In this document: positions 33,480 through 62,176 of the stretch, piece after piece
Position numbering within the stretch: position 1 is the stretch's first letter
Layout of the letters: every line of letters starts with the position of its first letter
NCBI RefSeq assembly: GCF_018873765.1
Contig: NW_025317446.1
Coordinates: 1 to 64,000 of the forward strand
DNA length: 64,000 bases
Direction: 5' to 3'
Origin: Telopea speciosissima
Taxonomy: Eukaryota > Streptophyta > Magnoliopsida > Proteales > Proteaceae
Translations under genes and position numbers: made by a program
The notes under the pieces: generated by a model
Seen by the model: the letters and a program-made list of their open reading frames with translations, nothing else
Told to the model about the DNA's origin: nothing
The model's database searches: none

Positions 33480-33559
33480 AATCAGGATACGTGATTTCTC
33501 CGGCTTTGAGAAAGTTGGGATGAAAAAGAGGAGTCCAAAAATCCAAGTCTAGGAAAACT

Positions 33560-37786: not shown

Positions 37787-39206
37787 CTGCAGATGTCCAT
37801 AGAGAGGAATTAACATGAACCATTATGAAAGGTCATCAGAAGTAACTGAATCTCAACAGAAATATAGGTATGAAATAAACATTACATTATAATCAATAGA
37901 GTCCAGAGAAAGTAAAACTAAAGCATTTATTAGACTAATGATGGTAGATCCTAAACCTCCTCTTAAACTAAATGCCTCCATTAGCATTCTTATTATGTAA
38001 GTGCAGCCAAGCACTCTCAGTCTTGAACCTGTGTCCTCATGGTGGCAGCTCGAGCTTTTACCATCACACCAAATAACAGCCCCTCATCTATGTAACTACA
38101 GAAATTAGAAAACAAAGAGAAAAGAGTGCCTTTAGCCTCTCAAACTGGCTAGATGAACTATTCTTAGCCAATAACGAGTTCATTTACTGGGAATACTAGT
38201 AGTAGTATTGCTTGAGGCCAATGAAATGACTTCAGAGAGTTGCTTCAGCCACAAGAGGACCCAATATATACTTATTGAAATTCTTCATATTATACCCTCA
38301 TCCCCTCATCCTTCTGGAAATATTACTAGAATACAACTGCCTTCAATTTGGACTAGGAGAATCAACTTATCTCCCTATCTAATAACAAAAAAGCTCATCA
38401 CAACAGCAACACCTCCACCCTTCCCTGCCAAAGGGGGAAAAAACCCCCAAGTTTCTAAATCCATGACAGATACACTTCATTGAAGTTGAGAACAGTCAAA
38501 TAGAAAGGTCCTCACCAACTCATGCAACATTGGGTCCATTAATCTGCTTCTATCATATGTGTCGCTCTTTGAGGGACCAAATAAATTGGCAGTCCCTACA
38601 TTTGCAAAAGCATGCTTACTTGCACATCATCGATAAAGAACAACTTCTACTAGGTTCTGCTACAAGCATGCTTACTTGCACATCATCGATAAAGAACAAC
38701 TTCTACTAGGTTCAGCTAGCATGACCCATAAGATAGTGAAAATTTCATTTTCTCTGCCTAAAAGCAAGACATGACAAAGGCATGGAAAAGCTGGCTATTT
38801 TTGCAGCTTTCTCAACCATTGGTTTCAGTGAGCACAGTTATCATCAGTTTTATACATGGAAGGATATAAAATTCATCCTTGTGTTTGTCATAGTATCTTT
38901 CTGCTTCTATTTAATGTCACAACATCATTTAGATTACAACCATTTTTGTCTGATTGCATAGCTCTCTTTGGTATCAATTTTTTTTTTTTTTTTTCTGAAA
39001 CAATTTTGCAAGTGTTTGGTATCATTTATGGGCCCGATTTCTATTTAAATAAATCAAAATAATAGAAAAACACTATAGAGTCAAGACCCATTTATCTGGT
39101 GAAAAATCGGTTTTGGCCATTTATGCAGGTACCATTAATGAACATGTGCAAAATTGCTACTTAAGTGGGGATAAGATGGTAAAATCAATGAAAATTATAA
39201 ACAAAG

Positions 39207-39253
<47 letters not shown>

Positions 39254-42200
39254 TTTATATAACATATAAAAAACAAGGAATATTACATAATAATATAATA
39301 TAATAATAAATGAGAGCTGACTGCCACTCCCGGCACGATGTCTGCTCCTTCTGATCCCCATCCTGTGTCTACCTCAGAATCTCCTCCTCCCACCACCTTT
39401 GCTCCAGTTCCTGAAGCTCCTCCACACACTGCCCCTGCTCCTCCCCTATGGAGTTCCCTGTTTCGTTCAAACCAGCCCTCTTCTTCCTCACCCGAAGGAC
39501 TCCCTCTGCATTATGTTTCTCCCACTGTTGTTGGTTGCGCAAAAATGGCTATGTGTCCTTCCGGATTCCTTGCCGATGAGGCCAAAATCTGGGAAGCTTG
39601 TTTGGTAGGCCATTTCCTTGGCTCTCGACCTCCCTTCCACATTGTCAAACTCTCCCTCTCTAAGCAATGGAGAATCCAAGGCACCTTTGAAACCTTCCTT
39701 CTTGATAATGGCTTCTTCATCTTCAAGTTCTCCAGCTACCTTGACAAAGTCCGTGTGCTCGAAGGGGGTCCTTGGCTAGTTGGGAAGAAACCGATCTTTC
39801 TTCGTCAATGGCATCGTCACCTTCAGCTCCGGCGGCTTGATCTCTCCACTATTCCCCTCTGGGTCTCTTTCCCTGGCCTTCCTCTCCATTACTGGTGTAC
39901 TGAGGGTCTACGCACGGTTGGGTCTGTTCTAGGCAAGCCCCTTTTCTCTTATGTGAATACGATGAGGAAACTTCGCCTAGCCTATGCTCGAATCTGCATT
40001 GAAGTGGCTGCTGATGAGCCGTTACCCTCTTTCATCACCGTGAATGAAGGGGAGGATTTTTCGTTCGATCAGGAAGTGCACTACGATTGGAAGCCCCCCC
40101 ACTGCCTTGTGTGTAAGAAGTTTGGGCACGACTTTGCTCTCTGCTCTCCTAGAGGTCCAACGGAGCTTTCTTCATCCATCGCTGAGCAACCTCTTAATGA
40201 AATCAACCCAACGTTGACTCCTACCACCGCCGAAGAGGAACACGCTCTTCCTAATTCCAGAGGAAGAAGCAGAACTAGTTCCAGGGGAAGATCCATGGCC
40301 AGATTCCGTCACTAGAAGTCCAGCCGGAAAGCCAGCCGGAATCTCGCGCGGGCCTCTGTTGCCGTTAAGGATCATCGTCGAAGCATCTTGGGATCTCCTT
40401 TACCCAGCGGACAAAACAGATTCGCAACTTTATCCTCTGATGTTGAAGCAGAGCTGGAACCATATCCCGAGAGGATCATTGACTCTGTCGCTCCTCAATC
40501 TCGCTCACGAATGGCATCGCCATCTGCTGCAGGTAGCCCTAACTCTTCTCGAGAGTTGTCGCTCTGCTTGCCGGGGCCTATTCCTCCTCTGCAAACTGAT
40601 GACGCTCCTGTGAGAGGTTCTCCTACTCCCCTTTCCCAGGTTTCGCCTGCTACATCCTTTTCTTATGCTAACACTCCTGTGGGCCCCCCTAATACCTTTT
40701 TTAATTCCATCTCATCCCCCTCTTTGTCGTTACCCCCCCCCCCCCACTTTGCTCTTAACTCTTCTTCCCCCTTCACCTCATCTATCTTGGGCCCCATCCC
40801 ATCTGTTCTGTTACCTAACTCCCTACACGGCTACACACCCCTTCAGGTCTTCGGGTCGAGTCGACCCATGCCTCCAAACACTCTTCCACTCACTCTCCCT
40901 TACTCAACCACCCCCTTTTGAATTCCCCTGCTCCTTCTGCCAGGCTTGCAATGCCTTCTCTGGACTGCGCTTACATTAGGCGCCACCGAAGCTCTTCTAT
41001 GTCCCGTAGTGTGCTTTCTAGGCTCGATGGGCCTAAGTTACTCCCCCAATCCATTTCCAAAAGAATCTCGGCCATATTTGGAACACTCGGGGTCTCAATT
41101 CCCCTTGTAAGCATGCGGTTATTCGATCTCATATCAGGCTCCATCATTACAATTTTTGCTGCTTATTAGAGACCCATCTCAAAGACTCTAATGCAGAAAG
41201 TATCCTTAATTCCATTGCCCCTGGCTGGTCCTTCTTAACCAATCTCAATCATCACCCCAATGGCCGTATTTGTGTTCTATGGGATCCTTCAAAAATTAAA
41301 ATTTCCCTCCTCTCCTCTGCTCAATTCCTTCAGTTGAGTTTTTCAGACTGCCTAAGCCAAACTTCTTTCCTCTTTACTGTTATTTATGCTTCAAATAACC
41401 CTCTCCAGCGGGTTTCTCTTTGGGATGATCTTCGTAATGTTGCCAGTCAAATTGGTGCTTTTCCTTGGGGATTAGGAGGACACTTCAATGTGATCAGATT
41501 TGACCATGAAAAGCAGGGTGGTGACTTTCAATGATTGCTTAGAGGATATTGGGGTAAATGATCTCCGTTGGACTGGTCCTACTTTCACTTGGAACAACAA
41601 AAGGTCAGGTCTTTCTCGTATTGCTTGCAAGCTTGATCGTGTGGTTGTTAATGAATCTTGGCTTTCTTCCTTCCCCTCTTCCCATGCCTCCTTTGATGCC
41701 CCTGAAATTTCAGACCACTGTCCCACCTCCCTATCTATCCAGCCTTATACCTCCTTTGGTCCCAAGCCATTTAAATAATTTGATATGTGGTCTTCCCATC
41801 CCTCTTTCCTAACCACTGTTAAGGCTGCATGGGACAAGCCTGTCCAAGCTTTTTCCTCTCCCCTCATTGCTTTTGCTAGTAGGAAGCTTCGGAATGTGAA
41901 AGCTGCCCTCAAGGATTGGAACTCCAATACTTTAGGAAATATTTCTCAGCTTGTTTCAGAATGTAAGGACAAGCTCTCTTCTATACAGATGCAGCTCCAA
42001 ACTGACAGTCTTAATGCCACTTTGGCTGAAGAAGAGAAAGCTACATCCATTGAGCTCTCCAAGCTCCTTTCCCAAGAGGAAAGTTTTCTAAGGCAGAAGT
42101 CAAGGATCAAGTGGCTGGAGTTAGGTGACTCTAATTCAGCTTATTTTCATCGCTCTTTGAAAGCTAGAACCAACCACAACTCAATCTTACTTTTGGTAGC

Positions 42201-45200
42201 TCCTGATGGTTCTCCTCTTTCTAGAGTTAAGGACATTAAGGATACAGCTGTGGATTACTTCAAGAACCTCTTCAGCGGTCACTCGGTTGATCAAGGTCAG
42301 ATTCCAAACAATTTGCTCAACAAATTCATTCCAAGTGAGCTTCTAGAGTCCCTTTGGTCCATTCCAAATGAGGCAGAAATTGTTACAACTATTCACTCTC
42401 TCAAGTTGAATGGGACTCCTGTGCCGGATGGATTCAGTATAGGTTTCTTTTTATCTTCTTGGGACATTATCAAGGAAGACCTCATTAAGGCTATTAGAAG
42501 TTTCGTCCTCAACCCAAGTCAAATCAAAGGAGTTAACCACACTTTCCTCTGTCTCATCCCTAAAAGGGAGGATGCCTCAGTAACGTCGGACTTCAAGCCT
42601 ATTGCCCTTTGCAACCTACTATACAAGTTTATTGCCAAAATCCTTGCTCTCAGAATCAAGACTGTTGTGGATCTACTTGTCAGTGAAAAACCAATCGGCC
42701 TTCATTCTAGGTAGAAATATCACTGACAACATTTTGCTTTGCAATGAGATTGTTCGAGGATTTGCAAGAAAGAACCACTCCCCAGCTGCCCTTCTGAAGA
42801 TTGACATCCACAAAGCATTTGACTCCTTACGTTGGGATTTTATTGACAAGGTACTGGTCAAGATGGGTTTCCCCCCACCCTTCATCCATTGGATCCATTG
42901 CTGCATTTCTTCTCCCCGGTTCTCAGTTCTAGTCAATGGTAGCCCAGCTGGTTACTTTGCTTCTTTGGTGGATATTTGTCAAGGCTGCCCCCTTTCCCCC
43001 TACATCTTCACCTTGGCTCTCGAAGACTTATCTTGTGATATCCAAATCTGCACAGATCAGCAGCTCATTTCTCCAATCCCCAATTGCAAAGCCCTTAAGC
43101 TCTCCCATTTGGCATTCGCTGATGACATTATGATTTTCTCCAAAGCCTCCATCAACTCTTTCGAGGCTAATATGCAATGCCTTCAGCTCTTCCAAGATCT
43201 TTTGGGCCTCGAGATCAACCCAACAAAGTCTCTCCTCTTCCTTGCTGGAGTCACTAAATTGGAAAAAGAGGCTCTGATAGGAAAATGCGGGTTCCCTGTT
43301 GGTCAGCTTCCGGTTAAATATTTGGGTTTGCCTTTGATCCCGACTAGGCTCTCCGCTCATCACTGCACTCCAATGCTTGATCTCATTAGGAAAAGGCTTC
43401 AACTTTGGAAAGGCAAACTTCTTTCATTTGCGGGGCGATTGATTCTCATCAAATCAGTTTTGCAATCTTGCTACATTTATTGGTCTGGGATCTATGGGCT
43501 TCCTCACTCCACCATCAAGTCTTTGGAATCCCTTAATGTCCTCCTTCCTTTGGAAATGTTCTTACTCTACAAGATTTCTCCGGCCCATTAGTTGGGCCTT
43601 AGTTTGTCTTCCGCTGGAAGGAGGAGGTTTGGGCATCAGAAGGATAAAGGAAGTGAACTCTGTTGGCATAATCAAGCTGATATGGAAGATTGCTTCTAGA
43701 CAAAGGACCATTTGGGTGGATTGGATTTACTCGGGCCTCCTCCGATCTGATTCAATTTGGACAGTCTCAGCCTCTTCAGACGCATCTTGGGTTTGGCGCA
43801 AGATCCTATTTAATCGCTCTTCTATTCAAGGAGCTATCCAATCTTGCATTGGCGATGGAGCATCCACTTTGCTTTGGCTCGATCACTAGCACCCTTTGGG
43901 AATTCTTCTTCATCAAGTCAGCTCTAGAACTATCTATGGCTCTGGTCTCTCTCGTACATCTTTGGTGGCTGATATTCTTGATCCGAGTGGCTGGTCTGTC
44001 CCGTCCTCCTCCAGCCCTGCGCTCAATAACATTTGGAATATCTTGATTTCTATCCCTAGGAGACCCCATAATAGAGGTTGTTGAAGTACTGTTCATGTGA
44101 TACTATTCACGTGAACAGTGATTTGGTTGATATGTGTATCTTCTATTTTCCTAGTCCTAGTTGGAGTCCTAGTTTCTAATTATGTCAAGTCCTAATTCTA
44201 CTGTGAGTTGTTAGTCTTAGTTTCAGTTTGAGTTGTTAGTTCTAGTTCTAGTTCTTTTTCTATTGTAACTTGGAATCCTATCATGATTTGGAATTCCTAA
44301 TCTGATTAGGAGTTCCCCTTTCTATTGTAATTTGAGATTATAAATACAAGCATTATGAGGGAGACTGATTAGTTTAACAGTTCTCTCCTCTTCCTCATCT
44401 TCTTCTCTTTCTCTCTTCTTCCTCCATTCTCAGTTCTGGTTTTCTTCATCTATACTTTCAGATGAAGGACTTGGGAGTTCTCAAGTATTTTCTTGGTATT
44501 GAGGTTTTGCGAAGCAAGAAAGGTATTAGCCTATCTCAAAGGAAATATGTTCTTGACCTTCTGACTGACACTGGAATGCTTGCTTCTAAACCAGCAGATA
44601 CTCCCATGGATCCCCATCAGAAACTTGGGTCCATTAAGGGTGAGGATTTTTCAGATGTTCATCGATATAGAAGATTAGTTGGCAAACTCATTTACCTTAG
44701 AGTCACTCGTCCAGATATATCATTTGTTGTTGGGGTTATTAGTCAATATATGCAGTGTCCAAAGAAAATTCATTGGGATGTTGTTTGCTGTGTATTGCGC
44801 TATCTTAAGAGTGCTCTGGTAAAGGTCTTATTTATCGACCTAATCGAAATGCTAATTTGGTTGGGTTTTCTGATGCTGATTGGGCAGGTGTTGATGGTGA
44901 TAGGAGTTCTACTACTGGCTTTTGTACCTTCGTGGGTGGTAAATTGGTCACATGAAAAAGCAAGAAACAAACAATTGTTGCTCGATCAAATGCTGAAGCT
45001 GAATATCGAGCAATGGCACATACTACAACTGAATTGATGTGGGTAAAATCCTTGCTCCAAGAATTGGGATTTTCCATCACTCGGCCTGTGCAAATGTTTT
45101 GTGATAATCAAGCCGCCATCTATATTGCAAGCAATCCTGTATTTCATGAAAGGACCAAGCACATTGAGGTTGATTGTCACTTTGTTCGGGATGCTGTTAT

Positions 45201-46474
45201 GAAGAAGTTAATTGCTACTCCTTTTGTCTCTACTACCAATCAACTTGGTGATATGTTTACAAAGGCTCTATTTGGACCTGCTTTTCATCGAAATTGTACC
45301 AAGCTGGGTCTAGGTGATTTGTAAGCTCCAGCTTGAGGGGGAGTACTGAAGTATTGTTCACGTGATACTGTTCACGTGAACAGTGAATTGGTTGATATGC
45401 GTATCTTCTATTTTCCTAGTCCTAGTTGGAGTCCTAGTTTCTAATTATGTCAAGTCCTAATTCTACTATGAGTTGTTAGTCTTAGTTTCAGTTTGAGTTG
45501 TTAGTTCTAGTTCTAGTTCTTTTCCTATTGTAACTTGGAATCCTATTATGATTAGGAATTCCTAATCTGATTAGGAGTTCCCCTTTCTATTGTAATTTGA
45601 GATTATAAATACAAGCATTATGAAGGAGACTGATTAATATAACAGTTCTGTCCTCTTCCTCATCTTCTTCTCTTTCTCTCTTCTTCCTCCATTCTCGGTT
45701 CTGGTTTTCTTCATCTATACTCTGTCATAGAGGTGATTGTGTTACTTGGCTGCGGAATTCTTCGGGCTCCTTCAGTTCCAAAGCCGCTTGGGATCATATC
45801 CGCTCTCGCAACCCTCTAGCCCCTTGGAGGAATCTAGTCTGGTTCAAGTACCACATCCCCCGCCATTGCTTTACAACATGGAGAGTTTTTTCAGATTGTC
45901 TTCCAACGCAGTCCTTCCTTCGGCACCTTCATATTGCGGTCTCCCCAAGCTGTGATCTTTGTTTGAAATGCGGATGAGGATTCAAACCATCTTTTCTTTG
46001 TTAGTCCTTTCTCTTCCTCTATATGGAAAGACATCCTCGCTAAATGCTGGCCAAGAAACCATAGGATTCTTCCTTTTGACAGAGAATGCGTTTGGGTTGA
46101 TAGACTTTAAGTGGCCACTCCCTTTGTGACGCGGTCGGAAAGCTGGCTTTTTGTGCTGTCATCAATCATATTTGGATGGAACGCAACCTCAGGAAATGGA
46201 CGACCAAATCCCGCTCTCTTCAACAGATTTAGGATTCCATTTTCTTTGAGATTAAAGCTAAACTTAGCTCGTCTCCCCCCTCCACTTGTATTGATACCCC
46301 AAGGAACAGGCTCATTGTTGTTTCCTGGGGGCTTACCTCTATCTCTCTTCAGGCTTCTGACTCCTCTCTCTGAGTCTTTGCCTTTTTTATATTTTCCTCT
46401 TATTCTTCTCCCCTCCTAATTTGAGGGCTGCTGTATTTCTCTCTTTGGTAATGGATTTTTTATTCACCCAAAAA

Positions 46475-46516
<42 letters not shown>

Positions 46517-49500
46517 ATAAATAATGAATAATATAATACATACTATATTATTATATTATATCTAATATTGTATAGTATATAATATAAAAAGGAAGTTTTC
46601 TTTATATATTATAAATAATATAATACGTAATATATTATTATATTATATATAAAATATTGTATATATTATACAATATTCACTTGTGCTGGTCAAAGACGAG
46701 GTACCGTGGATGAACTTAGCCCTTATTTGTTTGCGTTTATCATGGATGAATTAATCAAGAACATCCAAGATGAGGTACCGTGGTCTATGCTCTTCGCCGA
46801 TGACATTGTTTTGGTGGATGAGACAAAAGCATGGATTAACGCTAAGTTAGAGTTGTGGAGATCGACTTTGGAAACAAGAGGCTTCAAGATTAGTAGATCA
46901 AAGACGGAATATATGATGTGTAACTTTAGTCACACTATGATGGATGATGACGTGGTAAAATTGAGGAGCGTGAGATACTGCCAAGTGACTATTTCAGATA
47001 TCTGGGGTCTATCATACACAAAGAAGGTGACATAGATGATGATATCCATGGTTCAAAATCTCGCGATATATCACCAATATTTCGGTATATTTCGGATATC
47101 TTGACACTGCCGAGACGAGATGACCAAACGAAATGAAAAAAGTCCAAATTTTGGTATGTTTCGTGAAATTTCGGTATATTACTTAAACAATGTGTATGTA
47201 ACTATTTATACATCAGGGTCCCCGACCGTATACTGTCAATCAAGGGTGCAAACCCAAAACACTACTTTGAGTTCATTTTTTTGTAATATGAAGGTTTTAA
47301 TGTGTTTATTTAGCTTGAATAGGGGTGTATATGAAGTATTAGGCCTTAATATGGCCAAAAACCCACCGAAATGAACTGCCGAAATATGGCAGAAAAAATA
47401 CCATATTTCGGCGAAATTTCGGTAAATTTTGGATATTTCAAAAATCTTTACCTACCCGAAATGGTGAGACGAGACGAGATCTTGAACTATGATATCTCAC
47501 AAAGAATTAAAGTAGGATGGATGAAGTGGAGAGGTGCGACCGGAGTTCTATGTGACCAACACATTCCTTTAAAGCTTAAAGGAAAGTTCTACATGACTGT
47601 TGTCTGCCTGGTTATGATGTATGGGGCGGAATGTTGGGCAGTTAAGAAGTGCCATATAGCGAAGCTATGTGTTGCAGAGATGAGGATGTTAAGATGGATG
47701 TGCGGATCACCCCGATCAGAGACAAGCTCCAAGAATGTCGCCTGAGGTGGTTTGGCCATGTACAACGGAGGCCTGGGGATGCCCCAGTAAGGAGAAGTGA
47801 TCTGACGCCGATTGAAGGAGCTAAAAGAGCTAGGGGCAGGCCTAAAATGACCATAGGTGAGGTTGTGAAGAATGACATGCATAGTCTGGGTCTTGTACCA
47901 AGTATGACCTCGGATAGAGCCTATTGGAAGGCAAGGATCCATGTTATCGACACCATGTAGCTGAGATTTTCCTGAATTTCTGGGTTATCCTCTTTCCTCT
48001 TACTTTCATCTTTCAGTTTCCATTACTTACTTTTCTTATCCAATTTCTTTTAAGTTTCTCTTACTTTCCTTTGTTTTGAAAGGATCCATGTAGCCGACCC
48101 CATTTAGTTGGGATAAGGCTGTGTTGTTGTTGCATTCACTTGTGCAGCTAGCGGAGAGTTTGGCGTTTGTGTTTTGGCTCTGGGAGGTGTTCCCTTTCTC
48201 TTCTACAGTTAGGTTGCCAACTATGGTCTCATTCTTTCCTTCCATATATAATATATACAATATTTTTATATATAATATATTAGGTAATGTAGTCCTAGAA
48301 TAGGAGATAATCCTACTAGGAGCCAGATAAAAGCAAGGTCTGGACAAGCCTGCTGTTTGGGGCTGATTAGGGGCTGTTTTAGGGCAAAATTAGGGTTTAG
48401 GATGGGAATTTGGGAATGGGGTTTATAGGGTATTAATGGGCAGGTCTAGGGGGTCAATATAGTATAAAAAAGTTAGGGTTTGGATGAGTTTTGAAATTCT
48501 GCAATTCTGGACAGAATTGAGTTGCAGGTTTTGGGCTTTAATGGAGTTAGGGTTTATGGGATTCAAACCAAAAATAAAGGGGATCAATTGGGTAAAAGGA
48601 TTAGAGGATTAGAAGAAGAATTTTGGCGTCAAACTTACTGAAGATTCCACTGGCAGCAAGCTTCGATAGTTGTGAAGGATAAAGCCACCTTCGAATTTGA
48701 AGAAGATCCTCCCAGCTGTCACGGCGTAAGGAGTCAACCGGATTCCACCAGTCCCTTTTCACCTTGATAGAACCACAAGGATGCACACTCACAAGGAGCA
48801 CAGGAGCAGCAACAATGGCAGCCAACAAGCAAAAGCTTTTTCATTAATCAAATTCGTGTTCCCGGCTTTGCCCCCTTACAACCTTATATAAAAGACTCAA
48901 AAATAGACTTCTACTCTAAAAAGGAAAGGCCTAACCCAATCCCTAACCTATTAGATAACTTAAACTGATTAGGAAACTAAAATAGACTCAAAATAGAGTC
49001 CTATTGACTTAAAAACAACTTAAGCTACTTAAAATAAAGAAGATTCCCTACTAGCCAATAGGATATGAGAACCTCTTAGCCAATAGGATCACTTCACTTA
49101 AATTAGATCAATTGAACCAATTGGATGCAACCAATTCTAAACCGGTTCAATCTAAAAATAGGAAAATAAACTAAGTATTGGGCTAATCCCGTATGCAACC
49201 TATATGCCCCTAGTTTAGGCTCATTAAAGTGGCCTAATACATAAAAAACCCTTGGGAACAAAGGCCCAACATGTATATAACCCAACCCTAGGCCTATTTC
49301 TAAAGAAATAAGCCCTATTTGGTGATCATTCTGCATCATTAGGTATATATTATATCTAATATAATACAATAACAACCATAACCTTATCCCAACTAAATGG
49401 GGTCGGCTACATGAATCCGAAGAGGCTATGACCGTAAAAGAAATAAGAGAGGTAAAAAGAAGTAAAAGGAAGAAGAATAGAAAATAAGTAAAGGAAAAAT

Positions 49501-52500
49501 TCAAAGCAGCATCCCAGGAACATTCCCTTACAAGGGGTCGGCTACACGGGTCCTTGTCCTCCAAACAACTCTATCTGCGGTCATACTATAATATATCTAA
49601 TATTATATAATAAATAATATAACAAAAAAGACCTTTGTTATATATATTATGGAAAAGAGGACGTCACATGGTCGAGCACCGCACGCTGCCCCGATGCCCA
49701 GACATAGGGGCACTCAAAATGACCGCCACACCCCTAGTCATTTCCATCTTTCTAGGGTGGTGCGGCGGTCATTATACGCACCCCTTATGTTTAGGCATAA
49801 GGGTGGCGTGTGTTGCGCGACCGGGTGGCATTCTTTCTTCCAAATATTATATTATAAATTCTGAATAATATAATACTTATATTATTATTATTATAATATA
49901 TATAATATATAAAATAGTATATTAACATAGGGAGGAAGATGGGTGACGGGGGAATCCCTTCACCCACCAATTAAAATTATTTACCCATAGGTAGTTACCA
50001 AACGGTTTCTCATTTTATACTCTATTATGTCTAATGGTTACCAAACGATTTTCATTTTCTGATAAAAAATGGTTTTCATTATTATACACCAGCTGTTTTA
50101 AATGCTAAACTCCAGTGCAATCATTTACAAAAACATTGAAGAGAAGCCAGTATCCCAGACAATAAGGATTTTGAGATCCATGAATCTGTATCCAATGAGC
50201 TATTAATAACCCAATAGCCACATTGTGAGAGAATATTATAAAGCAAAATAATTTCCACTTCCCAAAATTTCATTTATTGTTTATTCTTGATAAATCTCTG
50301 GACAATAAACATACCATTGCATGGTTGCATATCTTCCTCATCAACCAGTTGTACTTAGGATATAAAGAATTACTTGGAATAAAAACATCTCTAATTGCGA
50401 ATACAAGATTTGAGGCATACCTCAACCATACTATGAGCATTAGCAATTTGTCTCTGGACACAAGGATGATCAATCTCAAGAAGAGAAGGCATCTGTCCTG
50501 CAAGATCATCTAGAGAAGCAAGTAGGGCCTTCTTCTTACTTTTGGTTAGTGAGTTTACAGAGGCCTGTCTGATTATGTCCTGTTTATAAAATTGACTTAT
50601 AAGAAAAACAATCCCCACTTCAAGTAAATAAAAAATTCAACTGAAGTAAAGTAAAAACCTTGACTCCTTTTAATATGCCACCAAGGGATATCAGAGATGC
50701 CAGCCGTGCATCTTCCACTGCAGTGGAAGGATTTTGAATAGGCGAACCACCTTGTCCTACCATTAGTAAAGCTGCATCATTTCGTATTTGTTCCAGAATC
50801 TGGTGATAGAAATATTGTCAGCAAACCAAATATATCATTCACAGTTACATATGATAGGGTATTTAGAAACATGTTACAAGGCTTACACTTTGCATTCATA
50901 TTAGATGATATACAACTTACAAGGCTCAGACTTTACATTGGTTGACAGATTTTTTTAGATTTCTTTGAACTTCACGTGCAGGAGTAAGAATCAAATCATC
51001 CACATCAAAAAAATTTGGGAACTAGACATTTCAATGTACCAGTGACAACCGTGAAATATTGGGCATTTCTCCCAACACAGGATGTTCAGCAGGCTGGACA
51101 CAGTCCTCTGCCCTTCATCATTGATATGAGTCTACTTTGGGCCAGCTATCAGGTCACACCCTTCGATTGTATAGCCTAAACTAGTACCTAAATTTTGCAA
51201 CCTCAAGAATCACCCATGGTCAATGAGATTAATAGATTTGTCAACAGATTTACGTTTACTAGGATTTATTTCAATTGAATTAAATCAATAAATAAGTATT
51301 TCATTCCAATTGGAAGTATTAAAATAACCCCCTCAGGACAGAAATGAAACCATAAAAAAACAGCCTTTTCATCTCAGACAAACCCCACCTAACCGAGCTT
51401 CTATAGTACAGTCCTGTACAGGTTTCCAAAGAGCTAGCGTGCCTTTCCTCACGCCCTTGGTGCACCCATCATGAAGGATAAAGATAAAGCAAAACAACGT
51501 TCTTTTTTTTGGTGGTGGGGGGGGGGGGGGGTTGGGGGAGGGGGAGAGTGAGACAAGAGATCCACCACCCAAACAAGGAACAGAAGTCCAAAAGCAGAGA
51601 AAGGCAACGAAAAATCAACACCCTTTCCCTCCCCCTAGAGCACCAACTCCCAACCCCTAAAAGAAGCCTGACACCCAAACAAAACAAACACATAAAACCA
51701 CCTCCATCCTCCACCACTAGACATACTAACTCCTAATAAAAAGGGGAAAAAATACTGCATCCTAGAAGGAAATATCAACAGAGCTTCAAATACAAGAAAC
51801 AAAGGAGTTAGTTGCTGAAAAGCATTGGCACTCCTGGCATTTTCCCTTCGGCAAGAACATTCTGCTGCCACTGTATTACAAACTTCTTTTGTATAGAAGA
51901 CCAAGGTAAATTTTGGTTTTTTTTTGTACTCCCAGTTTTTTAATCAGTTTTCATACATATCAGATTCCTTTCTCTGGTTTTATCTGCAATAGATTCGTTT
52001 ATTGGAACCACGTTGCTGATCTGCAGGTCAATCCCTTAGAGTACACCAATTAAATCATCAGAGAAAGTGACTTCTTGATAACACATGGTTTGTCACTTCC
52101 AATTCAGAACCCAGTTAAAATTCAATGATTCTCGACATTAATTTGATCAGGTTCTGGAACTTCACTGTATAATCTAATTGTCTTCCAGAACTACTAAATT
52201 CTGTTCTTTACTCAATTTGACTTCAATTATATTACTTTGAAATTAAACCCTATAATTATCCCACCGCTTTACAAATCTTTCATCCAAAACCATCTCCAAA
52301 TACAATATCCCATAGGACCCTAATTCGATAGCCTTAATCATAAACCTAGTCCTCTAACAGAGAAACCCCAAGAATCTGAAAGCTTTATACTTAATATTTC
52401 TCAAGTGAGTTGATTTCCCTCAATGAGGTCTTGCATCAGTCTATTGAAGAATATATTGACCATATCACAAATTCAATGCATGTGAAAACAAGTTCTTGGC

Positions 52501-55500
52501 TACAGACTATTTACCTAGGATTTAGATACCAAGTACAACATGAGAGAGCTCAAAATTCTCATGTGATGTAAATGGAATCGGGTCGTCAAGATGGCTTTCT
52601 GTACTCCTATTTATCATATTTAGTGGGAAAGCAACAAGCATAGATGGTCTACTACATCTCGAACCTTTAGACTAGACTTAATCAGCTTAGTGCTTCTGAC
52701 TCAGATTGTGATAAGAACCGCCAGATTGTTTCTTCTTGGGGTCTTCAGATTAGGCTACTTTAAGTAGTTTATTTTTTTTCCCTTAAATTTTATTCACCCA
52801 AAAGAAAATATCCTCATGTGATGTAAAGAAGTATATCAACTTTCTCCAGTGGAAGAATAGATAAGTTGGCAGTTTTACATATATGATTGATGAACATAAA
52901 TTGATACCTTTCTTCTCTTATGATCAACAGACTCAAGTGCAGTACGAAGCTTAGCTACTTGTGCAGAGTCTTCTGCTTCTTCTGTTGCCAAGGTACCAGC
53001 AATATCCTAGTAAAAGACCAAAGTAGGTATCAAGAATATGGACTCTAAAACATTGAACTATACAAATACAGAAAAAAGAAAACAATACATGCTTATTTCA
53101 AATGAATCACTTGAAAAGTCAAAACTGAAAACTTGTCAATATCACAATGATATTTGGAAGTTCACCAATCTGAAGACGTGTGTGCAACTATACTTAAGAG
53201 AACTGTAAAAAGTACAACTCAAGCTCCAATTCAAACATTACCAAAATTGGAACTCTCAAGGAGGTCAAATATCCATTATGACTGAATAAGATCTTCATGT
53301 CAATAAAAACTAAATAATAGTAGAAAACATAATGATCACTTGAAAGTGATTAATGAATCGAATATCTAATTGCCACAGTGATACTGGTAAAAAATTTGAA
53401 GGAAAAAAAAAAAAGGAGAGGGGGGGGGGGGGAGAGGAAGGAGTGTGGAAATAGGAAGAGAAAATGGGTGACAAACTAAAGAATGATGTGACTTATTTGA
53501 CAGCACTAAGGAATTACATACATGATATAAAATCAATTGCAAATACTTAAAAATTAAGAAGTTTTGTATGTCCCCAGCCTATCACACTTGAGTTTTAATT
53601 TGATTGCAAATTTTAAAAATTATGAAATTGCTTTTGTCACCAGTCTATTACTCCTTTCTTTTATTGTGGTTTGCCCAGTTTTGGTACCATGTGGAGTTTT
53701 CTGGGCATCATATCAGCACCAGTAATCCACGGAAAACTTGTGTAGCTATAGTATAACTCAACTCAGCCTTATCCCAACTATAAGGAGCCAGCTATATGGA
53801 TCCTCTTTTACCAATCAACTCTATATTGTGTAGCTATAGTACAGAAGCTAAAGCACCAATCAACTCTATATACTTGTTTTAACTGCTAAGTTGTTATTTT
53901 AAGACTTCACCCCAAGTACAGAGAGACAATGATCAGACATGAAATAAGCACAAACATACAATATCAGAGTTGAAAAATAATTAGGAAAAAAAAGCAACAA
54001 ATTTAAAAATGCAGTACAGATAGCAGTTAAACTCAAGAAATTATTCAAGAAACATATTTCTTCAGAATTTATAATGCAGGAGACACAAATAAGGCAAAAC
54101 AACAAACTATAGAAAAATGTTTCCAGTATTGTGCAAGACAAGACAGTTGGAACCAAATATTTAATAGCAATAGAATATCTATAGTGCTAGCATATCTTAC
54201 AGGAAAAAAATCATAAGAAAAAGGGTTGACAATAATGGCCATGTTTGGTATAACTATCAAACTTTGGAGTGGTACTCCTGGAATGCAGTTCTATTATTCA
54301 TACAAGTGTCTCACAGTAAATGAAAATTACTATATAAATAGAACAAGGAAGTGACTCGTAGGAAAATATTTTGCTCAAGAAAAACCACCACTAAAGATCC
54401 CTAACCTAAAAATCATAAAGAATCAAATTTGTGCCAAACACAATTCTAGTCATAATCACCTCAAATAATAAAAAACCCTCATATCAGTATATCACTCCAA
54501 GGAAGTGATACTGAATAACACCACAGCATCTCATGATGACACACAAAAGCACCACTCACAGAAAAGAGTGCTCCGCAAAATTTAATTGAGGGAAGTCAAA
54601 GAAGAGTTTGGACTCAGAAGGAAGATCTGAAAGTCTAGAAGAGTAGCTTTGAGAAGCTAGGTTTCAGCTATACCAAGTACCTTCAAGTGCTGTAATTGAG
54701 AAGTATAAACCCGCTTGGCATACTCGGACAGAAGTTGTCCTAGAGCATCAGTATTGGGTGGCAATGCTGCACCAAGACCAGCCATCCAACCATCCATAAT
54801 GGCTGTTGAAAGAAGCTCCAGCTGTCCAGTTGTTCCCCCTATGGCCTCACTGCCAGTAACAGAAAGAAACTCAAAGTTCTCTGCCAGCCAAGATCTAATT
54901 TGGCGTTGCAGCTCACCGGCTGGAGTATGAACAAAGAGAGCTGCAAGAGCCTTGTTCCCAATTGCAAAAGTTTTGGCTTCTTCCGTTAGCTCCCTTAACT
55001 TTCCACCAGTAATATGCTGCTTCCATGCCTCCTGCCCATGCTCAATAATCTCATATAATAAATAACGAGATCCAATTTATTACAAGAGAAACTGGTACAA
55101 TTTCCCAATGACAATATAAGCGGTACACAACAGTGTTCTAACATGAAAGCAGCAACAGTAACTAATACAAATGATAAGGTCAACAAAAAAAAACTGTGTG
55201 TAGTGAGCATAACATGCTTTAGTTAGTGATCATTTCTTGGAAAATGAGTAAATACACTTAGGAATCTCAACCAATAATTCCTTCCCTGCCTCCATCAAGA
55301 AATAGAGCTGACTAATCCTAAGGCAAAGGGTTGAGAAACTCAACGCCACTATTCCTGAACAACTTGGAGCCGGGCCTTCTTTTCGCACTATACGGATACG
55401 AAAATAATGGGAAAAATGGGATTCAATTGTCAACTGCTCCCATCGGAAATAGGATTGACTACAGATTCGAGCCATAGCACATGGTTTCATAAAATCTGTA

Positions 55501-56093
55501 CGATTTTCCTTATCTAAATCGAGCAGGTTTTACATGAAGAACATTTTGCTCTTACAATAAAAGTTTGAGGTAGGTACCTGATCAATTCCTCGGAGCTTCA
55601 AAACAACCGATGAGAGCTTAGACTTCTTTTCTTGCTTTATATTTACTTTAAATCCATGAAAGTGCTCATCAACCAGAGAGCTCCTTGTGATGGAATCATA
55701 AGGTACTGGAGACCTACCAGGACTATTGCCCCGACTGGAGCTTCTACTGCGACCAGTATTAGACTTCTCTAAGAAGCGTTCAACTGGAGAAACCTGTCAG
55801 TTAAAAGGAAGTAAGCAGTGTAACCTTCTCATCTCTACAAAATATGCAGGTGATGGCATATATTTTAAACAATAGAAATACAGAGTTTAAAGTCTAATTA
55901 CCTTGATGGATTGCAGCTCGGGTGATCTAGCAATCAAAGATCTTATATATAGAATTCTAACACGAGAAACAAGCATTGTATCCATTACCCTCCTTGGCTC
56001 CATCTTCCGGAAAAATGAAAATATAGCATCTCTGATTTCAGCAAGTATTTCATGCTCTCTTGCAGCCCCTGCTTTGATGACTGCAGCCAAGAC
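37334..56093 (-). CDS. KAC: KAC/KCA-type kinesin, C-terminal seven exons
   Basis: Minus-strand exons 55902-56093, 55578-55793, 54681-55031, 52908-53006, 50659-50799, 50421-50579 and 37334-37786 join in phase 0 into 536 residues with a TGA stop. The protein reads like the C-terminal half of Arabidopsis KAC1/KAC2 (KCA1/2): LAAVIKAGAAREHEILAEIR, MEPRRVMDTMLVSRVRILYI, ALAALFVHTPAGELQRQIRS, KRVYTSQLQHLKDIAGTLAT, TETDVSQWNVLQFNTG and ALARTADGTRARYSRLYRTL. KAC proteins are kinesin-14-related and act in actin-based chloroplast photorelocation and anchoring; that role is from the literature on the family. The motor and coiled-coil exons are not in the window. Every exon found is open with proper splice sites. 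Introns total about 17 kb, including a last intron of 12.6 kb packed with transposons. Confidence 0.92.
38608..38717. repeat. Tandem 56 bp duplication in KAC last intron
   Basis: Two nearly identical 56 bp units beginning 'aagcatgcttacttgcacat'. The high identity implies a recent event. Confidence 0.9.
39206..39253. repeat. (TC)n(AC)n microsatellite
   Basis: About 13 TC units run directly into about 11 AC units; compound dinucleotide repeat at the left edge of the L1 insertion region. Confidence 0.95.
39338..40315 (+). pseudogene. L1 ORF1 (gag-like, DUF4283 plus zinc knuckle)
   Basis: 325-residue open frame. The middle shows the plant L1 gag-like pattern (NGFFIFKFSSYLDKVRVLEG, GPWLVGKKPIFLRQW, PLWVSFPGLPLHYW), and a CCHC-type knuckle CLVCKKFGHDFALC lies near residue 265. 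RNA-binding chaperone role by family. The frame itself is intact although the element is dead. Confidence 0.9.
41079..41778 (+). pseudogene. L1 AP-endonuclease domain, frameshifted
   Basis: Frame 41079-41534 opens WNTRGLNSP, with LLETH and the motif GGHFNVIR, where plant L1 elements normally have GGDFNVIR; the catalytic aspartate is replaced by histidine. It ends at a TGA, and frame 41500-41778 continues with RWTGPTFTWNN and the ISDHCP end motif. One frameshift near 41515. Confidence 0.88.
41785..43591 (+). pseudogene. L1 reverse transcriptase, frameshifted
   Basis: First frame 41785-42714 covers the region up to AILALRIKTVVDLL, second frame 42602-43591 starts around SAFILGRNITDNILLCNEIV. 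RT blocks present: LLKIDIHKAFDSLRWDFI, QGCPLSPYIFTLALEDLS, and the catalytic LAFADDIMIF near 43105-43135. Frameshift near 42700. Confidence 0.92.
44079..45727 (+). mobile_element. Internally deleted copia element nested in L1
   Basis: LTRs 44079-44460 and 45344-45727 (about 382 bp) enclose only the end of RT and RNase H; gag, protease, integrase and the primer site are gone, and RT sequence starts directly after the 5' LTR. A purine tract (GAGGGGGAG) precedes the 3' LTR. TAGAGGT repeats at 44072-44078 and 45728-45734 mark the insertion, and the L1 zf-RVT frame reads across (PHNRG then DCVTWLRN). Seven matching bases is longer than the usual 5. Confidence 0.88.
44462..45324 (+). pseudogene. 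Copia RT end and RNase H relic
   Basis: 44462-45037 begins MKDLGVLKYFLGIEVLRSKK with PADTPMDPHQKL and RRLVGKLIYLRVTRPDISF; 45013-45324 holds the RNase H end (CDNQAAIYIASNPVFHERTK, HIEVDCHFVRD) and stops just before the purine tract. A frameshift near 44815 breaks RNase H (SDADW region in another frame). Confidence 0.9.
46484..46680. repeat. AT-rich microsatellite DNA
   Basis: (AT)n followed by TA-rich irregular repeats. The same type of DNA reappears at 48240-48286, 49338-49400 and 49580-49650 and flanks the L1 on the left, suggesting one AT-rich region split by successive insertions. Confidence 0.8.
46687..48133 (+). mobile_element. 5'-truncated RTE LINE, split by a MITE-like element
   Basis: RT end (46706-47035: [32 protein letters not shown]) and C-terminal region (47500-47960: MMYGAECWAVKKCH, RWFGHVQRRPGDAPVRR, MHSLGLVPSMTSD) are separated by 47047-47491. 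It ends with 'gtagccgaccccatttagtt' and GTTGTTGTTG. A 12 bp target duplication ATTCACTTGTGC is at 46675-46686 and 48134-48145. Stops and frameshifts make it inactive. Confidence 0.92.
47047..47491. mobile_element. MITE-like palindrome nested in RTE LINE
   Basis: 445 bp, starting CATGGTTCAAAATCTCG and ending with the inverse of CATAGTTCAAGATCTCG. The interior is full of 'cgaaatttcgg'-type words. Flanks share ATATC (or ATGATATC if the end is placed differently). It interrupts the RTE frame between DDDI and SQRIKVGW. Confidence 0.8.
48287..49337 (-). mobile_element. Unclassified 8-bp-TSD repeat, copy 2 (1.05 kb)
   Basis: Full-length relative of 3408-4772 with a perfect 8 bp target duplication ATTAGGTA (48279-48286, 49338-49345). 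Minus-strand TATA-like TATATAAG at 48883-48890 and donor GTAAGT at 48633-48638 sit in the same order and spacing (about 245 bp) as in copy 1. The segment between includes the same HPCG.IKV and DSLRRD.WED words. About 300 bp are missing relative to copy 1. Confidence 0.85.
49370..49570 (-). mobile_element. RTE LINE 3' fragment
   Basis: Minus-strand 3' end of RTE ('ccttatcccaactaaatggg', 'gtcggctac') with a second related fragment 'ggggtcggctacacgggtcc' near 49535. Flanked by AT-rich DNA, so the target duplication cannot be placed. Confidence 0.75.
49651..49841. mobile_element. GC-rich MITE in AT-rich DNA
   Basis: 191 bp imperfect palindrome with ends GGAAAAGAGGACGTCACATG and the inverse of GGAAGAAAGAATGCCACCCG. 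ATATATTAT (49642-49650) and AAATATTAT (49842-49850) look like a 9 bp target duplication with one mismatch. Confidence 0.75.
50421..50579 (-). CDS. KAC: KAC exon
   Basis: 53 codons, DIIRQASVNSLTKSKKKALL to NAHSMVE. Acceptor AAACAG, donor GTATGC. This donor must be joined across 12.6 kb to the last exon. Confidence 0.92.
50659..50799 (-). CDS. KAC: KAC exon
   Basis: 47 codons, ILEQIRNDAALLMVGQGG to GILKGVK. Acceptor CACCAG, donor GTTTTT (weaker than usual). Confidence 0.9.
50800..52557. other. KAC intron, no gene
   Basis: Intron between KAC exons 52908-53006 and 50659-50799. Contains a poly(G) tract with flanking GA repeats at about 51516-51550 and nothing recognisable as coding. Confidence 0.6.
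52573..52812 (+). mobile_element. 5'-truncated L1 LINE fragment
   Basis: 240 bp of L1 C-terminus and 3' UTR related to 46130-46470 ('tcatatttagtgggaaagca', ending 'tttattcacccaaaag'). A perfect 15 bp target duplication CTCATGTGATGTAAA is at 52558-52572 and 52813-52827. Confidence 0.88.
52908..53006 (-). CDS. KAC: KAC exon
   Basis: 33 codons, DIAGTLATEEAEDSA to DHKRRK. Acceptor ACTAG, donor GTATCA. Confidence 0.92.
53407..53450. repeat. Poly(A)/poly(G) tract
   Basis: A-run, GGAGA, then a G-run of about 14. Purine-only on the plus strand for over 40 bp. Confidence 0.8.
53754..53825 (-). mobile_element. 72 bp RTE-tail insertion with 16 bp TSD
   Basis: Minus strand reads 'ggatccatatagctggctcc' then 'gttgggataaggctgagttg', the RTE 3' end. 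A perfect 16 bp duplication TTGTGTAGCTATAGTA flanks it (53738-53753, 53826-53841). So either an extremely short RTE copy or a very short SINE using the RTE tail. Confidence 0.85.
54681..55031 (-). CDS. KAC: KAC exon
   Basis: 117 codons, EAWKQHITGGKLRE to TSQLQHLK. The most conserved block (ALAALFVHTPAGELQ). Acceptor GGGCAG, donor GTACTT. Confidence 0.93.
55578..55793 (-). CDS. KAC: KAC exon
   Basis: 72 codons, VSPVERFLEKSNTGRSRSS to LRGIDQ. Includes a serine-arginine-rich stretch. Acceptor TGACAG, donor GTACCT. Confidence 0.92.
55902..56093 (-). CDS. KAC: KAC exon (first in window)
   Basis: 64 codons, starting VLAAVIKAGAAREHE after a TTACAG acceptor and ending LQSIK before GTAATT. The exon that should precede it (ending near NKLLML in Arabidopsis) was not found up to 64000. 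Confidence 0.92.
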
Positions 56094-57048
56094 CTGTAAT
56101 ACAGCAATGTAGCAGTTTTTTCTTCAGCCTTGATTGCAAATAATAGGCATATAGATAAAACCTCCACTAATTTTTTTTGTCATAACAACTGAATGTTGGA
56201 TGGATTCGTAATCTTTAAGAAAATTGCCTATGAACTCGTCAAGTCGTCATTGTTTCTTTTAAAGGGAATCTCAATTAAATAATTTCACTTTGAGGGTAAA
56301 ATGAAATGGTGAACTCATGGGTAGTCCCATCATAATGCAGGGCCGGTTAAAATTTGGAAATTGGGACACGTTTTAGTATTAGCGTGGGTCAGGACTTAGT
56401 TTTTGGATTTTATTGTTGTAATGGGCTGAAATATAAAGCCCAAAAGTGGGGTTTTAAGGGGGTGCCTGAAAATTATGATTTTATTTGTGGGTCTCATGTC
56501 TAGAGTCCTTATCTTAGCTATCCAAGAGTCCTATTGTTAGTTATTTTGGCTAGTAAGAGTTTTATTAATTTGGTTATTTATTTAGCGTAAGAGAGTGTTA
56601 AGAATTCCTTCTAAGCATAGTTGCTACGCCACCTAGGCAAACCAAGATGGTGGGGGGGGGGGACTAAGGCGACACCAACAAGATGCCAAAAAAAAAGTGG
56701 CAAGGACCCCTAGGCAGCCGCCTTGATATGTATGCTTATAAGAGTCAATTTAAGAACGTTTACAGATTATAAATATGTAAATTTGTAACCACCCCTCCTA
56801 CGGTTTGGAATTTGAAAGGATTGTTTTGGTTTGTCTGGTAACTGCGTTGTGGGATGTATTCGCTCTTCTCTTGGTTTTGTAAGGGATCTCTTCTCTCTTC
56901 CTAATTTCTTCTCTCCATCCCAATCCCACAGTAATTCTCTCATTATTTCTTTCCTTTCTTATCTATCCTTTCATTAATTCTCCCATTATTTCTCTCTTAT
57001 ATCACCCTCCATAGTAAGAAGATTTTCCCTTTCTTTTTTTCCTTCTAA
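56094..57048. other. Upstream KAC intron or flank, no gene
   Basis: No KAC exon found. Near 56616-56735 there is decayed DNA with 'gccacctaggca' and 'cctaggcagccgcc' words like those at 59100-59190 and 63054, perhaps the same TIR family. Confidence 0.45.
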
Positions 57049-58330
57049 ACTTAATGGGGTCGGCTACAATAGTTGTCACGGCGTCACGGCGATCCAAGTC
57101 GGTGGAGGGGTGTCATGTCGATATATCGACATGTCGCTCGCCATGGCGAGCATGTCAACCATGTTTTATTTTTTATTTTCTTTATTTTTAATGTTTTAAT
57201 AGATGTATACTCAAGCCATGTTTTATTTTTTCTCTATTGTTTCTCAAGTTTTAAGAAGAAAATTCAGAAATCAAAGAAGAAATCGAAGAGGGAAAGAAGA
57301 CAGGAAGAAGAAATCGAAGAGGGAAAGAGAGACAGGAAGAAGAAATCAAAGAGGGACGCTGGCGTAGGTCGCCATGCAACCTTCTCCAGCGCCATGGATC
57401 CAAACAAAACAAAGTAGGGAAAGATGGGGAACAGAGGGATGAGAAAATGAAAGAGAACAGAAAAATGGAAAATGACAAATGAAAGATTAAAGAGGGATAT
57501 TTGTCCTCCAATAGGTTCTATCCGAGGTCATACTTGATTCAAGACCTAGACAATGCATGTCCTTCCTCAAAACTTCTCCCATGGTCATTTTAGGCCTGCC
57601 CCTAGCTCTTTTAGCACTTTCAACTAGATCATATCACTCCTCCTTACTGGGGGCGTCCCTAGGCCTCCGTTGAACATGACCATACCACCTCAAATGACTC
57701 TCTTGGAACTTTTCATTGATCGGGGCAACCCCCAAGTCAGCTCTAAAACGTTCATTCCTTACTTTATCCTTCCTAGTTTTTCCGCACATCCATCTTAGCA
57801 TCCTCATCTCTGCTACACATAGCTTCTCATTATGGCACTTCTTAACTGCCCAACATTCTGCCCCATACATCATAGCCGGTTGTACAACAGCCCTATAGAA
57901 CTTTCCTTTAAGCTTTAAAGGAATATGTCATCCATATAGGACTCCAAACACATTTCTCCAATCCATCCATCCCACTTTAATTCTTTGTGAAACATCATCC
58001 TCTATGTCACCTTCTATATTTATGATTGACCCCAGATATCTAAAATAGTCATTTTGTGGTATTATATACTCCGTCTTCGTTTTACTAATCTTAAAGCCAC
58101 TTGTTTCCAAGGTACATATCAAAATATGGGCATCTCTCTTTCTTCAATTCGCACCATGTCAGTATCAATAATAGAATGATTAAAATTACACATCATATAC
58201 TCCGTCTTCATTCTACTAATCTTAAAGCCTCTTGTTTCCAAGGTAGATCTCCATAGCTCTAACTTAGTGTTAATCCCTGCTTTTGTCTCATCCACCAAAA
58301 CGATATCATCGGCAAAGAGCACACACCACT
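57049..58330 (-). mobile_element. RTE LINE copy, rearranged
   Basis: Minus-strand order: RT end ([20 protein letters not shown] near 58322), DVSQRIKVGWMDWRN near 57960-58010, MMYGAECWAVKKCHNEKLC (57873), LRWYGHVQRRPRDAP (near 57670), and the 3' end 'taatggggtcggctac' at 57049. The RT segment 'atactccgtctt.' to 'acttgtttccaaggta' occurs twice (58067-58115, 58198-58245), an internal duplication. A foreign stretch beginning 'agttgtcacggcg' occupies part of the 3' region (57071 to about 57440). Confidence 0.85.
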
Positions 58331-60160: not shown

Positions 60161-60389
60161 TTCTTCATGCCAACAGTGGATCGAATAAGATAAGAACAAA
60201 ATCTTTTTTTTTTTCAAATTTAGTCATTATATGATTTTTAAATGAGCAAGAATGTAGTAGCTATAAACAGTATAAAGAATTGGTTAAAGTTTCATTTGGA
60301 CGGCAAATCCCCTTAAAATATGCACCAGAAATACAATTCAGAAATGGCAGAAAAAAATTCCGACGATAGTGTAGACATCTTTTTATTAT

Positions 60390-60625
60390 GGGTAGTTTAC
60401 ACATACCACCCCTAAGGTTTGACGAAAGGATGATTTTACCCCCCAGTTTTGGAAAATTCTGCGTACCCCCCCCCCCGAGGTTTGCAAACGGTAACAAATA
60501 AGCCCATTCCGTCAGTTCATGACTAACTGTGTTAAAATTTAGATTTGAACTGACAGAATTGCCCTTGCAAAAAAAGAAAAAAAAAATGCAACTCATCTTC
60601 CCCAAATCGATTGGGGAAGATGAGT
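60390..60625. repeat. Left TIR of Pack-MULE
   Basis: Pairs along its length with 61930-62167. Contains a C-run at about 60466 and, at its inner edge, a short self-complementary 'catcttcccc...ggggaagatg'. Confidence 0.9.
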
Positions 60626-60639
60626 TGCAGGTTTTATGC

Positions 60640-60880
60640 AGAAACCAATTCCAATCTCTTCACTTCTCCTCGAAATCGAATTTGCAGAAGAGGAAGATGG
60701 ATTATTAGGGATTGTAGCCATCTGATCAGGCTGATCGGCTTTCCGACAACAAGCAATAAACAGAGACATCAACGAAATTCCATCCCCCAAAGCGTGATGG
60801 ATTCTCAATACACAACAATTTCGTTAACTTACCAAGAGTTGCTCTTGAAAACCAAGAGTGCGAAGGTGAGATAGCAAGCA
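60640..60880 (-). pseudogene. WSD/DGAT-like acyltransferase fragment in Pack-MULE
   Basis: The minus frame reads VLRIHHALGDGISLMSLFIA followed by CCRKADQPDQMATIPNN. HHALGDG is the HHxxxDG active-site motif of plant wax ester synthase/diacylglycerol acyltransferases (WSD1 family), which make wax esters at the endoplasmic reticulum. Only about 70 residues around the motif are present. The segment is bounded by a 25 bp inverted repeat (60611-60635 and 61030-61054). Confidence 0.8.
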
Positions 60881-61468
60881 GCAGATCTCAAATCAAGGAT
60901 CGCCATTGTCATTAAGCTGTTTCAAGAGTAGCAATTGATCATGATCCTTGATGCAGATCTGAAGACCTTCCCGCGAGAGATTGAAGAGAAGAAGAGGCCA
61001 GCCTAAAAAAGAATTCCAGCATTCCCTACAAAACCTGCAACTCATCTTCCCCAACTCTTTTTCTCTGTCTCTCTGCAATACAATCGTTTTTTCGATTTTA
61101 GGGTTTACTTCCTTTCTTCTCCATTTGTAATCTGTTTCTTCCGATGACTGTGCAGTAAGTCACGCAGCCTAATAATCCATGAAAAATGTGTGTATAATCC
61201 ACTCCTTATTAATTAATCTAAACATATAAGTATTTCCAGGGAAGGAATCACCGACATCTCATGGAAATGGAAAAAATTGATACCCTAATCTATTATTTCT
61301 TCATTACCATTCGGTAATTGATATCCTAATCTGTTTTCTGACTCTTCCATTGAATCCACAGTTCATGTGGGAGCAAGTGAAGATTTAGGGTTTTTTGACG
61401 ATTTGAAATCCTTATCCTAAGGTTTTGTAACCTCTGTTTTTTTGTGAGAACGATTCTGAGAAGGAAAC

Positions 61469-61924
61469 ATGGCATCAATAGACGAGGAAGAGAGGGAGAA
61501 GATAGAGCAACAACTCGCGTCCCTCACGAAGCAGTGTATGAACACATAACTAGACGCTGATTACATTCGTATTATGATTTTGCCTGACTTCTTTCCTAAT
61601 TTCTGGGTTAGATGGATGGCACTGGATCCCAGAAACTATAGGCAACTGGTAGATACAACTGTGGAGATTGCAAACAAAGTTGGTGCCGCTGATATCATAG
61701 GAAGATTATTTGAGGATCTTAAAGATGAGAGTGAACCATATAGGCGGATGGTGATGGAGACAACTGGGAAAGTCCTTACGAACTTGGGTGCTTCTGATAG
61801 TAATGATCGTTTGGAAGAGGAACTTATGGTGGAAGCTTATATGCTTTACAAGAGCAGACCAGTGATGAAGATAACGTTATGCTCAATGGGTTTGAGGCAG
61901 TGGTCAAGGCTCTTGGGATCAGAG
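61469..61924 (+). pseudogene. SF3B1 fragments fused in Pack-MULE
   Basis: From ATG 61469 about 20 residues (MASIDEEEREKIEQQLASLT) resemble the plant SF3B1 N terminus. They join directly to KQCMNT, an in-frame TAA (61547-61549), then [56 protein letters not shown]: the HEAT-repeat region of SF3B1, the U2 snRNP scaffold. Near 61850 the frame shifts and continues as [20 protein letters not shown] and ALGIRVKP. Several hundred residues between the two pieces are missing. The full sequence cannot encode SF3B1 function. Confidence 0.88.
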
Positions 61925-61929
61925 TGAAA

Positions 61930-62167
61930 CCCATCTTCCCCAATTGATTTGGGGAAGATGAGTTGCAGATTTTTTATTATTTTTTTTTTTTTGCAAGGGC
62001 AATTCCATCAGTTCAAATCTAAATTTTAACGCAGTTAGTCATGAACTGACGGAATGGGCTTATTTGTTACCGTTTGCAAACCTCAGGGGGGTACGCAGAA
62101 TTTTTCAAAACTGGGGGGTAAAATCATCCTTTCGGCAAACCTCAGGGGTGGTATGTGTAAATTACCA
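61930..62167. repeat. Right TIR of Pack-MULE
   Basis: Inverted copy of the left TIR, ending 'gtgtaaattacca'. The inner edge 'ccatcttccccaattg' directly follows the SF3B1 fragment. Confidence 0.9.
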
Positions 62168-62176
62168 TTTTATTAT

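Follow-up and report, generated by a model that had tools for sequence, protein, structure and literature searches.

The element at positions 60390-62167 of a Telopea speciosissima contig raises the question of how fragments of two host genes came to lie in it, and in particular how pieces of one gene, SF3B1, came to stand in an order that differs from that of the parent gene. The window, that is the whole stretch of DNA that was analysed, is 64,000 nt long and comprises positions 1-64,000 of the forward strand of contig NW_025317446.1 (assembly GCF_018873765.1); all coordinates refer to it.

The element is flanked on both sides by TTTTATTAT (60381-60389 on the left and 62168-62176 on the right), the two copies being identical in 9 of 9 positions. 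Nine bp is the size of the Mutator target site duplication (TSD) listed in Table 1 of PMC4423477. The left terminal inverted repeat (TIR), with its inner hairpin, occupies 60390-60635 on the plus strand, and the right TIR occupies 61932-62167 on the minus strand. Both were found by inverted-repeat search, which gives arms of 115 and 81 nt with 95% complementarity, and by alignment, in which 223 of 246 columns are identical if gaps are scored as differences; the outer part of the TIRs has 11 substitutions in 191 aligned bases. Pfam finds no transposase in 17 of the 40 open reading frames (at least 30 residues; the other 23 are short), and the only family with a meaningful score among these 17 is the WSD domain. 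The long TIRs, the 9-bp TSD, the transposase-free reading frames and the fragments of host genes together make the element, by these tests, a non-autonomous Mutator-like element of the Pack-MULE type. This identification leaves very little room for doubt, and the first-pass annotation, which had described a Pack-MULE with long Mutator-type TIRs and a perfect 9-bp target duplication, was right in all three respects. The window contains no further copy of the TIRs. A 20-base TIR pattern has no matches in the viral_contigs collection, which is not of plant origin and carries little weight here, and the TIR motif, taken as a text string, was not found in the literature search.

One of the two host genes is represented by a wax ester synthase/DGAT (WSD) fragment on the minus strand at about 60662-60811, which contains the motif IHHALGDG. 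The reading frame with this motif matches the Pfam family WS_DGAT_cat (PF03007) with an E-value of 5.4e-5 and 23.5 bits, the cutoff being 23.6, and the trimmed piece reaches 23.6 bits (E 5.3e-5). The NCBIfam model acyl_WS_DGAT (TIGR02946) gives an E-value of 1.8e-6 at 27.2 bits, far under the whole-protein cutoff of that model (309.95). Only about 150 bp are recognizable as WSD. The left half of the element, earlier read as WSD throughout, also holds a plus-strand SF3B1 piece (60837-60939) and a stretch of about 90 bp without assignment (60940-61029). The latter is not significantly similar to the next SF3B1 codons, as 4 of 100 shuffles fit them equally well.

The SF3B1 sequence is on the plus strand, in agreement with the first reading. 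The open reading frame at 61550 matches SF3B1 over its residues 2-94 (phmmer E 1.8e-34), and a second frame, at about 61828-61941, matches it at 2.3e-8. The codon numbers used below are those of a presumed Arabidopsis SF3B1 sequence, which we take as the reference; a 176-residue part of this sequence around the codons in question matches human SF3B1 at 1.3e-90. Piece B (61529-61931) corresponds to codons ~757-896. It contains a TAA stop at 61547-61549 and a frameshift at about 61828-61840, and its similarity to SF3B1 extends into the arm repeat described below. Piece C (60837-60939) corresponds to codons ~902-936 and contains two in-frame stops. Its identity follows from a phmmer E-value of 6.5e-5, with SF3B1 accounting for six of the seven sequences listed and an unrelated protein for the seventh (0.026), from tblastn E-values of 3.5e-6 within the element and 3.4e-4 within the window, and from a codon-compatibility score of 89.3 against a maximum of 27.8 among 100 shuffles. 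Pfam assigns no family to piece C and no domain to the HEAT reading frame of piece B.

Piece A (61469-61528) is the probable N terminus of SF3B1 with its ATG. Its codon-compatibility with the N terminus of the presumed plant protein is 32.5, a value that none of 200 shuffles attains, and tblastn aligns it to SF3B1 with an E-value of 0.06 within the element. A search of the PDB with the 26-residue peptide that begins at the ATG returned no SF3B1 chain, the matches being two unrelated designed proteins (E 3.8-3.9). When piece A is read as HEAT sequence instead, the score is 24.9 and one of 200 shuffles is as good; yet tblastn joined piece A to the HEAT alignment from codon 745, and the rejection of a HEAT origin is not beyond doubt. 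The ATG at 61469 is probably SF3B1's own start codon, as judged against this presumed plant sequence. Pattern searches with the SF3B1 sequence gave 4 stretches in viral_contigs and 64 in genome_contigs, none of which was confirmed; neither collection is of plant origin, and these results have little weight.

From left to right, the element is thus composed of the WSD fragment (minus strand), piece C, a hairpin arm, the leader with piece A, piece B and a hairpin. SF3B1 contributes at least three pieces, all on the plus strand and in permuted order, and pieces B and C, which are separated in the element, are neighbors in the parent gene, where the last codon of B is 896 and C starts about five codons farther on, at ~902. 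The identities of the two captured genes as first proposed are confirmed, and their arrangement as two opposed blocks is not, because one of the SF3B1 pieces is situated in the WSD half.

The inward end of each TIR is a hairpin, a feature missed in the first reading. The left hairpin (60587-60629) has a perfect 19-bp stem and a 5-nt loop, whereas the stem of the right one (61925-61967) has 2 mismatches. A scan of the 64 kb that required a 19-bp stem, a loop of 0-8 nt and at most 2 mismatches finds these two and no others. The DNA fold of 60581-60635 has an energy of -24.2 kcal/mol. The hairpin is not a known miRNA precursor: Rfam gives three matches with E-values up to 0.1, the best of which reaches 28.2 bits, where the gathering score is 74. 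A single hairpin arm, likewise overlooked before, is located in the middle of the element at 61030-61054 and is the exact reverse complement of 60611-60635 (25 of 25). In direct orientation, arms are found at 60594, 61043 and 61932. Elsewhere in the window, a stretch at 31928-31953 that has no TIRs contains a 14-nt exact match to the arm (TTGGGGAAGATGAG at 31932; BLAST E 0.002-0.008), which may be due to chance or may be a relic. A second element around this match was considered and rejected, as none of the seven inverted repeats found in 30500-33500 spans it.

The block formed by the leader, piece A and piece B (61055-61931) is flanked by two plus-strand copies of CATCTTCCCCAA, 12 bp that repeat the arm in direct orientation, at 61043-61054 and 61932-61943. 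When the block and one copy of CATCTTCCCCAA are removed in silico, the flanks pair in a perfect 20-bp stem around a 5-nt loop. The right end can then be aligned with the left TIR at its inner end, and the alignment takes in the GGTTTT/AAAACC extension, which is not present on the right side today. Random cuts within the element, 20,000 in all, give a stem as long in 13 cases (the longest is 52), and cuts that unite the two TIRs would be among these. Read most simply, these observations point to a right-hand hairpin that was still intact when it received the block, in an element where the WSD fragment and piece C were already present.

At the junction of pieces B and C, SF3B1 reads RVKPYLPQICGT in both the presumed plant sequence and the human one. 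The arm ATCTTCCCCAA is codon-compatible with the Y-L-P-Q of SF3B1 over 11 nt, beginning 1 nt past the breakpoint. Of 482 breakpoints in SF3B1 itself, 10 are as good; as ten is also the width of the test window, they probably represent one site. In six other open reading frames of the window, 21 of 1,800 breakpoints are as good. As a priming site, the microhomology between the arm and SF3B1 is suggestive, not strong.

The element as a whole is best explained by ectopic repair that captured host DNA in steps, the final one inside the TIR hairpin. The probability of this explanation can be put at roughly 0.55, and the chances that the capture proceeded by a route through the hairpin appear about even. 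According to this explanation, host DNA would have been acquired in at least two steps of repair-type copying from ectopic templates. An earlier form of the element would have had two symmetric TIRs, each with an inward hairpin, and between them the WSD fragment and SF3B1 piece C. A break in the right TIR hairpin, or a stall there, would then have been repaired by copying from SF3B1: the exposed arm may have annealed to the gene at the codons Y-L-P-Q, perhaps primed by the similarity of about 11 nt, and copying would have proceeded away from this site through piece B and afterwards, following a jump, through the N terminus and the leader. Rejoining of the new DNA to the broken hairpin would leave the 12-bp arm repeat on either side. 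Insertion at the present locus would have produced the 9-bp target duplication.

Several observations argue for capture at the hairpin. Removal of the leader-A-B block restores a perfect 20-bp stem that is symmetric to the left TIR, such hairpins occur only twice in 64 kb and the middle arm is identical in all 25 positions, the end of B (896) and the start of C (~902) flank the SF3B1 site that is compatible with the arm, and stem-loop gap-repair models for MULEs exist, as part of PMC4858842 describes. Against the explanation as a whole, the microhomology is only suggestive and the joint is off register by 1 nt. Furthermore, if the two steps were independent, the nearness of the end of B to the start of C would be a coincidence, unless pairing through piece C guided the second step.

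This nearness is the strength of the main rival, in which a single event would have sufficed. Both ends of a gap in an element carrying the WSD fragment would have invaded SF3B1 at codons ~896-902 and copied it in opposite directions, the left end producing piece C and the right end pieces B and A, and the products would have been joined through the hairpin arm. Such an event accounts directly for the abutment of B and C in the parent gene and for their position toward the outside of the element, which the favored reading explains less well. By itself, however, it does not account for the complete hairpin with the AAAACC extension that appears when the leader-A-B block is removed, where the favored reading does better, and it requires an extra switch for the arm in the middle of the element. 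A single event is, on balance, unlikely.

Still less probable is a single capture of A, B and C in their parental order, followed by a tandem duplication through the hairpin arms and by the later loss of A and B from one copy and of C from the other. The hairpin is palindromic, so its arms can act as direct repeats, and the three arms in direct orientation agree with such a duplication, which would likewise result in the order C, arm, A, B. It needs more steps, however, namely the duplication, two deletions and the insertion of the WSD fragment, and no intermediate is seen.

The stretch 61055-61468 on the plus strand is plausibly a captured leader with an intron-like part, and SF3B1 would be its source. 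The intron-like part is a 207-nt GT-AG stretch at 61155-61361 and would agree with genomic DNA as the source of the capture. In the first-pass annotation, the N terminus with its start codon was fused to a HEAT segment from far downstream, behind a possible captured promoter and leader, as a candidate for a new chimeric transcription unit. In the element, piece A, with the ATG at 61469, is followed by piece B from codon ~757; the N-terminal identity of A is the weaker assignment (the tblastn value of 0.06), and the frame is broken. That the leader, N terminus and HEAT segment form a functional chimeric gene is very improbable. A leader-like, intron-like stretch does precede the ATG, and the HEAT frame resumes in phase beyond the TAA and stays open for 125 codons. 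The frame from the ATG, however, ends at this TAA after 26 codons and is later shifted between about 61828 and 61840, piece C has its two stops, and the HEAT frame lacks a Pfam domain. Because of the early TAA and the subsequent frameshift, a chimeric SF3B1 protein from the element is not supported. If the element has an effect on its host, it would be through RNA, sense to SF3B1 and antisense to WSD, rather than through protein. As to nested or unrelated insertions in place of a capture by the MULE, or an error of assembly, nothing was found in favor of either, the perfect TSD exactly adjoins the long TIRs and the inner joints are marked by arm sequence, which makes such an origin scarcely credible.

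The element may lie upstream of, or within a large intron of, what is presumably a KCA-type kinesin gene, with scattered minus-strand exons that would extend over ~19 kb (37337-56246; among them 37337-37822, 54660-55076 and 55890-56123). Pfam finds no kinesin family in five candidate reading frames, and five kinesin motor motifs, sought in all six frames of the whole window, give one short match, at 29049 on the minus strand and not in a kinesin context. Retroelement remains are present on the minus strand at 57490-58328, with a weak reverse transcriptase match (PF00078, 58122-58328, E 8.1e-5, 22.9 bits, below the cutoff of 29.6). Long plus-strand reading frames at 39314-43889 resemble what we take to be a non-LTR retrotransposon. 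Two minus-strand reading frames, 23856-24233 and 34212-34574, resemble what is presumably the C-terminal part of a glutathione transferase; they are nearly identical, which suggests a tandem duplication.

The idea that stem-loops take part in acquisition is not new. Bennetzen and Springer are said to have proposed in 1994 a stem-loop/gap-repair model in which MULEs gain new sequence through gap repair at stem-loops, and Yamashita et al. reportedly dealt with stem-loop gap repair in their 1999 work on Tam3. Those are models or work on Tam3, whereas the present case is one natural element with a fitting anatomy.

Pack-MULEs with fragments of several genes are already known, and it is the layout of the pieces that is the point of interest here. 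Pack-TYPE elements to which several loci contributed are reported in a section of PMC8903248. Long TIRs, a 9-bp TSD, the absence of a detected transposase and fragments of more than one host gene are common to the present element and to the Pack-MULEs, multi-locus ones included, treated in the relevant parts of PMC8903248, PMC4858842 and PMC3310237; permuted SF3B1 pieces together with a capture inside a TIR hairpin are not met in those parts. MULEs with multiple TIRs, as covered in portions of PMC3310237, share with it the extra TIR-derived sequence inside, which here consists of the 25-nt arm only, an additional or nearly whole TIR being absent. The FoSTeST model for animal Pack-TIRs has microhomology-guided template switching in common with the reading favored here: 190 of these elements (67.6%) have microhomology at one or both breakpoints, according to the portions of PMC8277862 used here. 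The host group there is animals, and the word hairpin is absent from the main text of that paper. A Pack-MULE together with SF3B1 was not found in the literature search. Nor was a permuted capture situated in a hairpin, in a search over titles, abstract openings and parts of texts, which does not imply its absence from print.

The mechanism of gene capture by MULEs is described as yet to be understood in a passage of PMC3310237, and a 2026 review leaves room for an undiscovered mechanism in the part that concerns us (PMC13317346). Judged by the layout of the pieces, the small hairpins at the ends of the element appear to be the sites where host DNA was copied in. More generally, and as a tentative proposal that is rather doubtful at present, palindromic hairpins at the inner ends of TIRs might serve as capture sites, the arms of a broken hairpin annealing to short matches in host DNA and copying away from them. 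Captured genes would then be permuted and flanked by arm repeats, more genes could be added at the same place, and the element would be a fossil that records two or more of these steps. If one capture is subtracted, a perfect TIR hairpin is left, and neighboring sequence of the parent gene stands divided on the two sides of it; a comparison of copies of such an element within one plant genome would put the stem-loop repair model to a direct test.
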